DNA from: Sulfuricella sp. T08
GTDB lineage: Bacteria; Pseudomonadota; Gammaproteobacteria; Burkholderiales; Sulfuricellaceae
Length of the DNA stretch: 64,000 nt
Reading direction: 5' to 3'
Assembly: GCF_000971475.1 (NCBI RefSeq)
Contig: NZ_DF967522.1
Span: 85,403 to 149,402 of the forward strand
In this document: in pieces, positions 31,538 to 58,990 of the stretch
How the letters are laid out: every line of letters starts with the position of its first letter
Position numbering within the stretch: position 1 is the first letter of the stretch
Made by a program: the position numbers and the translations under genes
The notes under the pieces: generated by a model
What the model was told of the DNA's origin: nothing
Database searches by the model: none
What the model saw: only the letters and a program-made list of their open reading frames with translations

Positions 31538-31557
31538 CCGCACTATCTGCCGAAATA

Positions 31558-31825
31558 AGGACTCGCTAATGGATAAGTTGGGCATACGCTGGGGCTGGTT
31601 GGGGTGCAGTCCTAGGCGCGAGACGCGCCGTTGTGCCATTCACAACAAGCGGCTCGCAACACCGGAATGCACCCCAACCAGCCCCAGCCCGAAGGGTTGT
31701 CGCGTATTCGGGCGTCTGCGGCGTTGCAAGGCTTGCGAATGGAACAACCATTCGCTGCACCTCGCGCCTTGCATCCATCCCGAATATGCAGCAACGTATG
31801 TCCAACTTATCCATTAGCGAGTCCT
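31558..31825 (-). repeat. Element A: 268-bp nested inverted-repeat element
   Basis: Outer 31-bp inverted repeats (31558-31588 and 31795-31825; AGGACTCGCTAATGGATAAG start) match at 30 of 31 positions. Adjacent to the left one is a perfect 20-bp stem (31589-31608 with 31668-31687). A third stem pairs 31697-31712 with 31779-31794 and encloses hairpins TGCAAGGC/GCCTTGCA and GCGAATGG/CCATTCGC. The core, GCGAATGGTTGTTCCATTCG on the minus strand, recurs in element B at 54356-54625, with the same layout but different stem sequences. It sits between divergent genes; no target duplication is obvious. Confidence 0.9.
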
Positions 31826-31855
31826 CAAGCCCATATTCTAGGCTAAAATACCGCG

Positions 31856-32899
31856 ATGCCGAAGATATTGCTCGTCAAAACCTCCTCGATGGGGGATGTG
31901 ATCCACAACCTGCCCGTGGTCAGCGACATTCGCGCCCATTTCCCGGAAGCCGAAATCGACTGGGTGGTGGAAGAATCCTTCGCCGGTATTCCAGCCCTGC
32001 ATCCGGGCGTGAAGGAAATCATTCCCGTCGCCGTGCGGCGCTGGCGCAAAAACCTGTTCAGCCGCAGCGTACACGCAGAGATATCGGCCTTCATCAAACA
32101 CCTGCGCGGCAAGACATATGACGTAGTGCTCGACACCCAAGGGCTGATCAAAAGCGCAGTCATTACCCGCCTTGCCCAAGGCGCCCACTGCGGATTCGAC
32201 AGACAAAGCGCCCGCGAACCACTGGCTGCGCTGTTCTATGACAAAACACTGAGGGTCGAAAAAAATCAGCCCGCGGTTATGCGAAATCGCCTGCTGGCCG
32301 GCCTCACCTTCGGCTATTCCCCCGATGACCCGGTGAACTATGGCATCGCGGCACCATCCCTTTCCCTGCCCTGGCTGCCGACAACGCCCTTCGTCGTCCT
32401 TTTGCACGCCACCAGCCGCGACGACAAGCTCTGGCCAGAAGCCGACTGGATAGCATTGGGCGCTTCCCTTGCCAACAAGGGAATTGCCTGCATTTTGCCC
32501 TGGGGCAGCGCGTCAGAAAAGCTGCGCAGCCAGCGGCTGGAGGGAGAAATCTCACCGAGCGTTGTTCCTCCTGCGCTCACCCTCGGACAAGCCGCAACGC
32601 TGCTTTCACACTCCGTCGCAGTGGTCGGCGTGGACACCGGCCTGGTCCATCTGGCGGCGGCACTAAACGTGCCGACCATCGCCATTTACTGCGCCTCCGA
32701 ACCCGGCCTGACCGGCCTTCATGTTTCTTCCGGACAGGCCATCAACCTGGGCAGAGCGGGCACCCCGCCCGACACGGAAAGCGTGATCGACGCCCTGAAT
32801 TGCATGGTCAAATTATCTACAAGCACTCAGGTGCCGCCCCTCACCCCAACCCTCTCCCCAGAGGGGAGAGGAAGCAAACGTGAAGGGCGCTTGCTTTGA
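31856..32899 (+). CDS. waaC: LPS heptosyltransferase I
   Basis: A 347-residue GT9 heptosyltransferase. The N-terminus MPKILLVKTSSMGDVIHNLP has the KXSXXGD-type motif; LLHATSRDDKLWPEADWIAL and VVGVDTGLVHLAAALNVPTI are the conserved ADP-heptose-binding segments. The last 20 or so residues (VPPLTPTLSPEGRGSKREGR) are encoded by a common intergenic repeat and are not part of the fold. Transcription starts rightward here. A TAAAAT at 31844-31849 might be part of a promoter, but its spacing to the start is short. Confidence 0.93.
   Translation: MPKILLVKTSSMGDVIHNLPVVSDIRAHFPEAEIDWVVEESFAGIPALHPGVKEIIPVAVRRWRKNLFSRSVHAEISAFIKHLRGKTYDVVLDTQGLIKSAVITRLAQGAHCGFDRQSAREPLAALFYDKTLRVEKNQPAVMRNRLLAGLTFGYSPDDPVNYGIAAPSLSLPWLPTTPFVVLLHATSRDDKLWPEADWIALGASLANKGIACILPWGSASEKLRSQRLEGEISPSVVPPALTLGQAATLLSHSVAVVGVDTGLVHLAAALNVPTIAIYCASEPGLTGLHVSSGQAINLGRAGTPPDTESVIDALNCMVKLSTSTQVPPLTPTLSPEGRGSKREGRLL
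32836..32872. repeat. Dispersed C/G-rich repeat read as the WaaC C-terminus
   Basis: CCGCCCCTCACCCCAACCCT followed by CTCCCCAGAGGGGAGAGG forms a small hairpin and is a frequent intergenic repeat in proteobacteria. Here it is translated in frame as PPLTPTLSPEGRG. Confidence 0.65.
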
Positions 32900-36427: not shown

Positions 36428-36498
36428 ATCCCTCCGAAATTAAGGTTATGCTAATACTTGCAATTATTCCACATTTCCATTAGTTTCACACACTTTGC

Positions 36499-36582
36499 TA
36501 GGGGTCCGCGCTTAAACAACCTGAAGCCGGTGAGAAATACCCTCTGAACCTGATACGGGTAATGCCGTCGTAGGGAAGTATT
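36499..36582 (+). promoter_or_regulatory. TPP riboswitch (THI element) upstream of thiC
   Basis: The conserved aptamer segments are in order: AGGGGTCC at 36499, GCCGGTGAGAAATACCCTCT, GAACCTGATACGGGTAATGC and CGTCGTAGGGAAGT. These correspond to the CTGAGA, ACCCTTTGAACCTGAT and GCGTAGGGA signatures of thiamin pyrophosphate riboswitches. It would reduce thiC expression when TPP is abundant. Confidence 0.96.
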
Positions 36583-38638
<2,056 letters not shown>

Positions 38639-53094: not shown

Positions 53095-54357
53095 ATGGCA
53101 GGGGGAGATCTCGAAACCAAGCTGGCTGCCGCTCGCACCCGGCTGATCCTGGACAAGCCATTTATCGGCGCTCTCGCCCTGCGCCTGCCGATGATCGCCG
53201 CCAATCCAAAATGGTGCCGCACCACGGCCACCGATGCCCGCAACTTCTATTACAACCCGGAATACATCCAGGCGCTGAGCCTGGACGAAACCCAGTTCGT
53301 ACTGGCGCACGAGGCGCTGCACTGCGCACTGTCCCATTTCGCGCGGCGCCAGCATCGCATCAAACAGCGCTGGGACGTCGCCTGCGACTTTGCCATCAAC
53401 CCCCTGCTGATCAAGGATGGCCTCAGGGCACCGCCCGGCGCCCTAGTTCTGGATCTTTACGAAGGCATGACTGCAGAAGAGATCTACCCCTGCATCGATG
53501 AGAACAACACCGATGAACCGATGGATCAGCACATCTATGACGGCGAGGACATAGACCCAACCAGCAGCGGCCAGCAAAAGGGGGACGAGCAGCGCGAAGG
53601 CGGCCAAAGCCAGCAAGACCAGCAATCCGATCCGCAAAACCAATCCCAGTCCGGCGGCAGTTCGCAAGGTCAGCAGAAGGATGATCAGTCTGGCGGCGCA
53701 CCCCAGCCCAAGCCGCTGACTGCGGCAGAACGCGAGGAGCTGAGCGCGCAGTGGCAGCAGCGCCTCGCCGGCGCTGCCCAGCAGGCGCAGCAGGCCGGCA
53801 AACTCGGTGGGTTGCTGGCGCGCATGGTGGGCGAACTGCTGCAACCAAAGCTCCCCTGGCGCATGCTGCTTGCACGCTACATGACCCAGGTTGCCCGGGA
53901 TGATTACAGCTACATGCGCCCTTCGCGGCGTGAAGGGCAGATGATCCTGCCCTCCCTGAGAAGTTCCCAGGCTGATATCGTGGTTGCGCTCGACACCAGC
54001 GGCTCGGTCAACACCGAGGAACTGAACGAATTTCTGGCCGAAATTAACACGCTCAAAGGCCAGTTGCGTGCCCGGGTCACCCTGCATGCCTGCGACACCG
54101 CTCTTGCCGACGGGGGTCCGTGGGTCTTCGAACCCTGGGAGGAATTCAAGCTGCCCAAGGAATTTAAGGGTGGTGGCGGCACCGACTTCCGACCAGTATT
54201 CAAATGGGTCGAGCAACAGGGGCGATCGCCCGACTTGTTGCTTTATTTTACCGATGCCGAGGGCGATTTCCCGCCATCAGAGCCTCATTACCCCGTAATC
54301 TGGCTGGTCAAAGGCAAGGCACCGGTGCCATGGGGACAACGCATTCAACTGAATTAG
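53095..54357 (+). CDS. Putative metallopeptidase-like and VWA-domain protein (DUF2201)
   Basis: A 420-residue partner of the MoxR ATPase. The N-terminal DUF2201 domain has the zinc-type motif LAHEALHCALSHFARR (HEXXH) near residue 70. A Gln/Ser/Gly-rich linker spans about 155-205. The C-terminal VWA-like domain has VVALDTSGSVNTEEL (MIDAS DXSXS), the GGGGTDFRPVF loop and YFTDAEGDFP. No signal peptide, so it acts in the cytoplasm. The TAG stop at 54355-54357 coincides with the left end of element B. Confidence 0.88.
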   Translation: MAGGDLETKLAAARTRLILDKPFIGALALRLPMIAANPKWCRTTATDARNFYYNPEYIQALSLDETQFVLAHEALHCALSHFARRQHRIKQRWDVACDFAINPLLIKDGLRAPPGALVLDLYEGMTAEEIYPCIDENNTDEPMDQHIYDGEDIDPTSSGQQKGDEQREGGQSQQDQQSDPQNQSQSGGSSQGQQKDDQSGGAPQPKPLTAAEREELSAQWQQRLAGAAQQAQQAGKLGGLLARMVGELLQPKLPWRMLLARYMTQVARDDYSYMRPSRREGQMILPSLRSSQADIVVALDTSGSVNTEELNEFLAEINTLKGQLRARVTLHACDTALADGGPWVFEPWEEFKLPKEFKGGGGTDFRPVFKWVEQQGRSPDLLLYFTDAEGDFPPSEPHYPVIWLVKGKAPVPWGQRIQLN

Positions 54358-54625
54358 GGCGTGTTAACACTAATTTCACGCCTGCGTTGCTGCGAGAAAG
54401 CGATGGATGCTAGGCGCAAGGCGCGGCGAATGGTTGTTCCATTCGCAAGCCTTGCAACGACGCAGACGCGCTTTTCTCGCAGCAACCCTACGGGACGGGG
54501 GCGATTTGGGCGCCCCCCTTTGTCGCAAGCCACTTGTGGTGGCTTGCACCACGTCGTGTCTTGCTTCGCGGGCTGCATCCCAAATCGCCCCCGTCGCAGA
54601 CGCGAAATTAGTGTTAACACACCCT
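54356..54625 (+). repeat. Element B: 270-bp nested inverted-repeat element
   Basis: Outer 31-bp inverted repeats at 54356-54386 and 54595-54625 (AGGGCGTGTTAACACTAATT start) match at 28 of 31 positions. A stem pairs 54387-54402 with 54469-54485, with one bulged base. A perfect 17-bp stem pairs 54494-54510 with 54579-54595. The conserved inner core GCGAATGGTTGTTCCATTCG lies at 54425-54444, and CCCTACGGG links the two stems. Element A at 31558-31825 has the same order and sizes in opposite orientation. The element separates the VWA gene from dsrS. Confidence 0.9.
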
Positions 54626-54634
54626 AGCCTACCC

Positions 54635-58836: not shown

Positions 58837-58990
58837 AATAAAAAACCCCCGGGTAAAGGGGAGTAAACCCGGGGGGGATAAAACGCCTTAACAGAGGGTT
58901 AAGGCACCCGCTCAGGGAGGGAAAGCGGGGGACGAAAGGGTTATCGTCCACCTGCTCAGAGTGGAATGGCCTGGATAAAGTTCCGCGCTT
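58837..58990 (-). ncRNA. Candidate small RNA or hemB leader: run of four to five hairpins
   Basis: Between engB and hemB lie consecutive hairpins: CCCCCGGGT/ACCCGGGGG (58846-58875), GCCTTAAC/GTTAAGGC (58885-58905), CCCGCT/AGCGGG (58907-58929), GACGA/TCGTC (58931-58948) and a weak CCAC/GTGG (58948-58964). Read on the minus strand, the first hairpin is followed by TTTTTTATTTT, a good terminator, so the region could be a minus-strand RNA ending near 58838. Read on the plus strand it would be the hemB leader. A conserved RNA motif upstream of hemB is known from betaproteobacteria, but I cannot confirm a match. Confidence 0.45.

Follow-up and report, generated by a model that had tools for sequence, protein, structure and literature searches.

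Insertion sequences of the IS5 family that duplicate TA and have two overlapping frames form what we take to be the IS427 group, and those of the IS1380 family duplicate 4-5 bp of target. Two kinds of smaller element are also close to the ones described here. According to PMC10969869, prokaryotic MITEs are short and non-coding, with terminal inverted repeats, target duplications and stable stem-loops. REP and REPIN sequences (PMC3733652, PMC3116915) are small non-autonomous palindromic repeats, and PMC3733652 describes a hairpin of 20-40 bp that carries GTAG or CGTC as a tag at its foot.

We analyzed a stretch of 64,000 nucleotides from Sulfuricella sp. T08 (the window) in which two elements, A and B, have these same features of MITEs. 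They differ from the MITEs described there in that an inner module is kept across genera while the ends switch insertion sequence type. Like REP and REPIN sequences they are small, non-autonomous and palindromic, but unlike them, elements of the A/B family have terminal repeats with target duplications and ends that do not start with GTAG or CGTC. On present evidence this is a MITE-like family rather than an RNA, and its unusual, conserved double-hairpin core outlives changes of ends and of transposase family. Going by literature searches alone, the family is apparently undescribed: the core sequence, in either orientation, was in no paper of the literature searched, and among the entries listed by searches on MITEs, IS families and host taxa there was no description of it.

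Anatomy and insertion sites of elements A and B

A sequence-only reading of the window had proposed two copies of one folded layout. We found both, with slightly shifted limits: 31559-31824 for A (266 bp) and 54357-54624 for B (268 bp). The outer arms, inner stems, CCC-NNN-GGG linker and GAATGGAACAACCATTC core that it described are all where it had placed them (Table 1). It had not described the inverted copies of the module, the match of A to itself, the insertions with target duplications or the very large family.

The two elements share one anatomy, A on the plus strand and B on the minus strand. Read so that the core is GAATGGAACAACCATTC, each consists of a terminal repeat, hairpin 1, a small linker hairpin, hairpin 2 and a terminal repeat. 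Inside the outer inverted repeats are two inverted copies of one hairpin module of ~83 nt, the second of which has diverged in B. A matches its own reverse complement at 68% over its whole length, and hairpin 1 of B is 73% identical to hairpin 1 of A over 63 nt (E 3e-8). Folded as single-stranded DNA, the 283-nt stretch holding A reached -109.2 kcal/mol compared to -47.9 for dinucleotide shuffles (z -15.0), and the 283-nt stretch holding B reached -105.2 kcal/mol compared to -52.5 (z -12.4); 0 of 200 shuffles reached the observed value in either case. Neither element has a transposase gene, and at their lengths there are only overlapping frames that run through.

Table 1. Features of elements A and B, in positions of the window. 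R1 is a covariance model built from 42 modules.
Feature	Position	Strand	Remarks
A left target-site duplication TAA	31556-31558		empty sites in G005, G002 and G004; that of G002 is GAAATAAAGCCC
A left terminal inverted repeat	31559-31588	+	30 nt
A hairpin 1 lower stem, left arm	31587-31608	+	
A module copy 1 (inverted)	31594-31676	-	R1 52.6 bits, E 4.0e-11 in its genome; outside the R1 training set
A module copy 1, apical hairpin	31630-31646		GTTGTGCCATTCACAAC
A hairpin 1 lower stem, right arm	31668-31688	+	
A linker hairpin	31688-31696	+	CCCGAAGGG
A module copy 2	31707-31789	+	R1 96 bits (a member of the training set, so by construction)
A conserved core in module copy 2	31737-31753		GAATGGAACAACCATTC
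A right terminal inverted repeat	31795-31824	+	
A right target-site duplication TCA	31825-31827		one base off TAA
B left target-site duplication TA	54355-54356		
B terminal inverted repeat	54357-54386	-	first 19 bp as in left ends of IS5-family insertion sequences
B module copy	54392-54474	-	R1 85.9 bits (in the training set)
B conserved core in module copy	54428-54444	-	
B linker hairpin	54486-54494	-	CCCGTAGGG
B diverged second module copy (inverted)	54506-54588	+	R1 14 bits, E 5.2e-4, on 301 bases without filters; missed at E 0.01 with default filters
B second module copy, stem arms	54495-54510, 54579-54594		
B second module copy, apical hairpin	54536-54552		
B other terminal inverted repeat	54595-54624	-	
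B right target-site duplication TA	54625-54626		empty site in G011 is CTGAATTAGCCTACCC

Both elements are insertions with target duplication. Empty sites were found in sister genomes for each: the site of A is without A in G005, G002 and G004, and the site of B is without B in G011 and G004, with B present at the same place in G005. Comparison of occupied and empty sites gave duplications of TAA/TCA at A and, with no mismatch, TA/TA at B. B sits in a stop codon that is still readable, the TAG at 54355-54357 that ends the open reading frame 53095-54357. A is located between two divergent open frames, one on the minus strand, which by eye we take to be glycosyltransferase-like, and the other starting at 31856. 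The short gap between these frames (31538-31856 of the window) is made wider by A. Among 68 end pairs, the flanking repeats were TTA/TTA in 15, TAA/TAA in 10, TGA/TGA in 2 and CTA/TAG in 8; these pairs had passed a filter (left flank ending in A, right flank starting with T, ends starting with G[GA][GA]), and three elements are counted twice among them.

The sequence-only reading had set the two copies apart from ordinary MITEs, in which terminal repeats are the conserved part. This contrast was not supported: terminal inverted repeats, target duplications and empty sites are all present, and positions 1-8 of the A-type arms are nearly invariant. For these reasons A and B are MITE-like, and they are non-autonomous transposons.

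The hairpin module and the spread of the family

Three stems make up the consensus of the module: P1, P2, which has a bulge, and P3, whose usual cap is GG-AAYRR-CC. In the genome that holds the window, blastn with A recovered A, B and one weak third place, and the module model gave 12 matches. At least one module was detected at E 0.001 in 76 of 150 relatives, from 41 of 83 genera. In 5 of these 76 all 30 scored candidates matched, and with 150 candidates scored in each, G056 had 78 module matches and G045 had 56. An exact 20-nt core occurred in 60 stretches of a species-level genome collection, and 58 of them contain the module, a few cut by the end of the locus. The other two, L047 (Salinarimonas) and L056 (Thalassospira), have a bare core of 19-23 nt and no module, and we regard them as chance matches. 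A pattern search that allowed one mismatch found the core in 23 of 200 relatives, at least one of these by chance (L015, which has no match to the module model).

Among plasmids, blastn with A matched one from Azotobacter, where the module part alone aligns within a two-module element that has other ends, and B had no match. There was no match to A among phages, and the exact core was in none of the viral contigs.

In 50 of 51 neighboring pairs, parsed from the best 150 of 166 matches, a module on the minus strand is followed by one on the plus strand, and 41 of the 51 are spaced by 30 or 31 nt. L074 has the sole pair with both modules in one orientation: its two-module element (L074:4115-4400) resembles what an inversion of the interior, or of one hairpin, between the arms would leave. 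Spacer inversion could give such an arrangement. Shortened forms also occur, some with one module and some that are bare end-to-end hairpins of ~50 bp with the duplications kept. Examples of the latter, in L174, L176, L177 and L183 (around 6751), are palindromes of ~47-50 bp that consist of end repeats only, with nearly no spacer, between TAA/TAA or TTA/TTA. A hairpin in the middle of L219 (G044) resembles the module but has another apical stem (ATGTAC/GTACAT). It is located upstream of a tRNA and downstream of the end of a gene that is, by eye, presumably of the chaperonin type (GGM-rich), and it may be related to the module in a wider sense.

Ends and candidate transposases

The inner sequence is kept while the ends vary. 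Judged by eye, module-bearing elements have a dozen or more end types, including the A type (GGGCTCGT), the B type (GGGCGTGTTAAC), GAGCCTATTTC, GAGGGTGTTAAAGG, GGCTCTGTTGACG and GGGAGCCTCTGA. The ends of A itself are GGGCTCGTTAATGA.

The left end of B, GGGCGTGTTAACACTAATT, recurs unchanged over 19 bp, or 21 when the TA is counted, at the left ends of IS5-family elements of ~830 bp on plasmids NC_007949.1 and NZ_LR594668.1 (Polaromonas sp. JS666 and Variovorax sp. SRS16). The right end of B has one position different (GGGTGTG). The plasmid elements sit between CTA and TAG, as do the 8 end pairs counted above, and the Polaromonas element matches Pfam DUF4096 and DDE_Tnp_1 and NCBIfam transpos_IS5_3. 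On its left, B has an IS5-family end, shared with autonomous elements on plasmids of other species rather than in its own genome, and like them it is inserted beside TA. Unlike them it has no transposase gene, its palindromic arms are longer than the shared end, and its two modules are absent from the insertion sequences examined (no convincing R1 match in L266, L267, L268 or L189). The sequence-only reading had suggested looking for a dedicated recombinase or transposase in the genome. Plasmids gave these matches to the left end of B and no mover for A: no autonomous element with A ends was found in them. Among the matches listed, facing A-type ends are ~400 bp apart or less.

Several other candidate partners were rejected. 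In the insertion sequence L189 of the same genome, which has a DUF4096 match, the ends are GAAGCTGTTTT and correspond to those of neither A nor B. Another DUF4096 match, in G006, is enclosed in 595 bp (L190:1192-1786) with CTAGGTTCTGTTGACG ends, also other than those of A and B; this stretch is perhaps a decayed insertion sequence related to the GGCTCTGTTGACG end type. L191, L192 and 13 further DUF4096 loci had no convincing insertion sequence ends. A pair of CCTGGAAAC matches 4.1 kb apart in the same genome is a chance pair flanking an electron-transport-like cluster, which by eye we take to be rnf-like. On plasmids, four more end types yielded no usable partner (one Proteus match was inspected); the CCTAGAAAC type led to the IS1380-like element described below. 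In genomes chosen for carrying elements, DUF4096, the sole model with which IS5 transposases were sought there, was absent from 11 of 15. An integron attC site was also considered. The GTTGGGC/GTCCAAC pair in the arms of A fits the attC core-site consensus, but the arms of B lack it.

A second set of elements in the same genome points to another transposase family. Four other module-bearing elements have CCTAGAAAC..CAGTT ends, and ends of this type flank an IS1380-like transposase on a plasmid of Polaromonas sp. P1-6, where a module-bearing element adjoins (23.5 bits, E 6.2e-5 in 20 kb). One end, that of L158, matches the right end of the IS1380-like element on CP087967.1 over 17 bases. The right end of the IS1380-like element, CCTAGAAACGGCAGTTAGCC, is well matched, and the left end fits at only 15 of 20 positions; the NCBIfam score of the transposase, 155.5, is under the curated cut-off of 180. 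Two of the four copies have inexact near-repeats at their flanks (ATCAT/ATTAT and TTTAA/TTGAA), and none is clear in the other two. The likeness to the IS1380 family is limited to this second set and does not extend to A or B. Because B has an IS5-family end and the second set has IS1380-like ends, one module lies between the ends of two transposase families.

Pairing of the arms and its possible causes

The stems differ between copies yet stay complementary within each, as the sequence-only reading had noticed in A and B, and this could be confirmed on many more copies. The 30-nt A-type arms of 33 copies have 1.52 differences within a copy compared to 5.87 between copies, and 0 of 5000 re-pairings were as low as the within-copy value; 62 of 75 elements could be anchored for this test. 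Covariation in the module was strong against shuffled and slid controls. In a MAFFT alignment of 42 modules, 90.1% of cells pair compared to 70.1% when shuffled and at most 48.1% when slid, with covariation scores of 0.465 and 0.141 for observed and shuffled; this alignment was not fitted to the structure, although it was the source of the structure prediction. For 145 distinct modules fitted to the model, a set that pools first and second modules, 89.7% pair compared to 63.2%, and the scores are 0.593 and 0.159.

Arms might agree because RNA or DNA is under selection, or because one arm is copied onto the other. Homogenization would yield agreeing arms just as selection for pairing would, and strong covariation alone is no proof of a functional RNA. 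In the A-type arms, positions 9, 10, 14, 19, 20 and 26 vary between copies and do so in step within a copy. Over 32 A-type arm pairs, double transversions account for 45 cells and double transitions for 37, compared to 27 cells with G·T, 13 with A·C and 8 with a transversion mismatch; all are counts of cells rather than independent events. The excess of G·T over A·C in these arms leans towards pairing on one strand; 15 of the G·T and 4 of the A·C are at positions 23-24. At P3 columns 32/59 and 34/57 of the 145 modules, all four Watson-Crick pairs are found with no G·U and no mismatch.

The module could be a functional structured RNA (a regulator, terminator or stabilizer) that is spread by transposition and whose pairing is kept by selection on the transcript. 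It has a clear consensus fold and a conserved loop, with compensatory changes in 15 of 20 pairs (19 of 20 on the structure-fitted alignment), and both shared insertions described below have changed less than the DNA around them. G·T outnumbers A·C in the A-type arms, in the outer stems of 75 elements (99 compared to 77) and, as G·U, over all 20 module pairs of the 145 modules (146 compared to 110); in the hairpin-1 stems of 64 of the 75 elements the counts are 37 and 29. The excess is not consistent, however. It is reversed to 50 G·U and 75 A·C over 18 of the 20 module pairs, when columns 6/89 and 29/63, where G·U is a standing state, are left out, and the hairpin-2 stems of 73 of the 75 elements have 26 G·T and 50 A·C. 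Nine tRNAs in the same loci have 13 G·U and 0 A·C in 198 pairs, a weak control because ARAGORN scoring favors G·U. Double transversions are common in the A-type arms, and the longest flanking frames, which are frames rather than verified genes, have random directions (++ 17, -+ 16, -- 15 and +- 15 at 63 usable of 75 elements). No element matched Rfam at the gathering score in the whole window or in 16 element loci, where one tRNA was detected, and A alone at E up to 1 matched microRNA hairpin models only, far below gathering. The claim of a structured RNA, one of two suggested by the sequence-only reading, therefore fared poorly, and we consider it very unlikely; the other, a folded DNA substrate, is possible. 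The Rfam search of the window also found a TPP riboswitch at 36490-36593 (plus strand) and an anti-hemB sRNA (Burkholderia RNA 7) at 58838-58932 (minus strand), which has a terminator-like hairpin of its own and is unrelated to the elements.

Two readings without a transcript also need to be weighed. If these were ordinary MITEs derived from insertion sequences, the inside would be the relic of one insertion sequence and the shared inner sequence would reflect common descent. Terminal repeats, target duplications, empty sites and an end common to IS5-family elements fit such an origin. It seems improbable all the same, given that the IS5-family elements examined lack the module, that the module persists even though its ends have split into so many types, and that it is also found between IS1380-type ends. 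Selection by itself might keep the arms alike, if copies with mismatched hairpins transpose less well and so go unseen. The match of arms within a copy agrees with this, and near invariance at positions 1-8 is expected of transposase sites. Variable positions that change in step, with many double transversions and few intermediates, are hard to reach by two independent mutations, and we regard selection alone as unlikely.

PMC8604942 describes how template switching in replication homogenizes the arms of inverted repeats and inverts spacers, and PMC8794818 proposes that it keeps RNA hairpins paired. The mutation pattern suggests that template switching, which would homogenize the hairpin arms in DNA, is a better fit than an RNA. 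Given the mismatch types, the double transversions, the directions of flanking frames, the P3 pairs and this literature, we take homogenization at the DNA level to be the main process, alongside which selection would act on the outermost bases and on the module.

Our favored explanation, which we think probable, is that A and B belong to a single large family of non-autonomous transposons, served in trans by an IS5-type transposase, with homogenized arms and a selected module. The transposase would recognize the terminal repeats by their outermost base pairs, and insertion would occur at TNA for the A type or TA for the B type. We infer both the movement of A and B themselves and, for A, an IS5-type mover. 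Since the two arms form long inverted repeats, a replication template switch inside the hairpin could carry a mutation from one arm over to the other, which would keep each copy paired while copies drift apart. The sequence of the module would be kept by selection for some job at the DNA level. That this job is protein binding, or a hairpin that helps transposition or copying, is a guess that we offer tentatively.

Shared insertions allow a comparison with the surrounding DNA; two were found among the loci compared. B differs between G000 and G005 at 4 of 272 positions compared to ~9% over the surrounding ~2.5 kb (B included). The insertion shared by L048 and L060 has 15 changes in 268 positions, in a region that is 85.4% identical overall (14.6% different). 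Both elements are therefore more conserved than their surroundings, which may be due to function, to replacement by related copies, or to repeat insertion at the same site. Function at the site could be hinted at by this conservation, and a purely selfish reading does not predict it. All 4 changes in the B pair are one-sided, so no homogenization is visible there. In L048/L060, with 8 nt of flank on each side, 6 changes are at unpaired positions, 6 pairs have a change in a single base and 2 pairs have both bases changed.

Here the core is conserved and the ends are exchangeable, which is the inverse of the usual picture of MITEs and suggests that small transposons share a functional hairpin that is absent from the matching insertion sequences. 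With the family in about half of the relatives sampled, hundreds of natural hairpins are available for weighing homogenization of arms against selection. It is conceivable, though we hold it doubtful, that the module is a selected, structure-specific DNA site in its own right, bound by a host or transposon protein, carried and retained by independent non-autonomous transposons from two or more transposase families (IS5 and IS1380), and with stems continually repaired by template switching. If this is true, the module would be either an accessory that small transposons have in common or a parasite moving from one of them to another.
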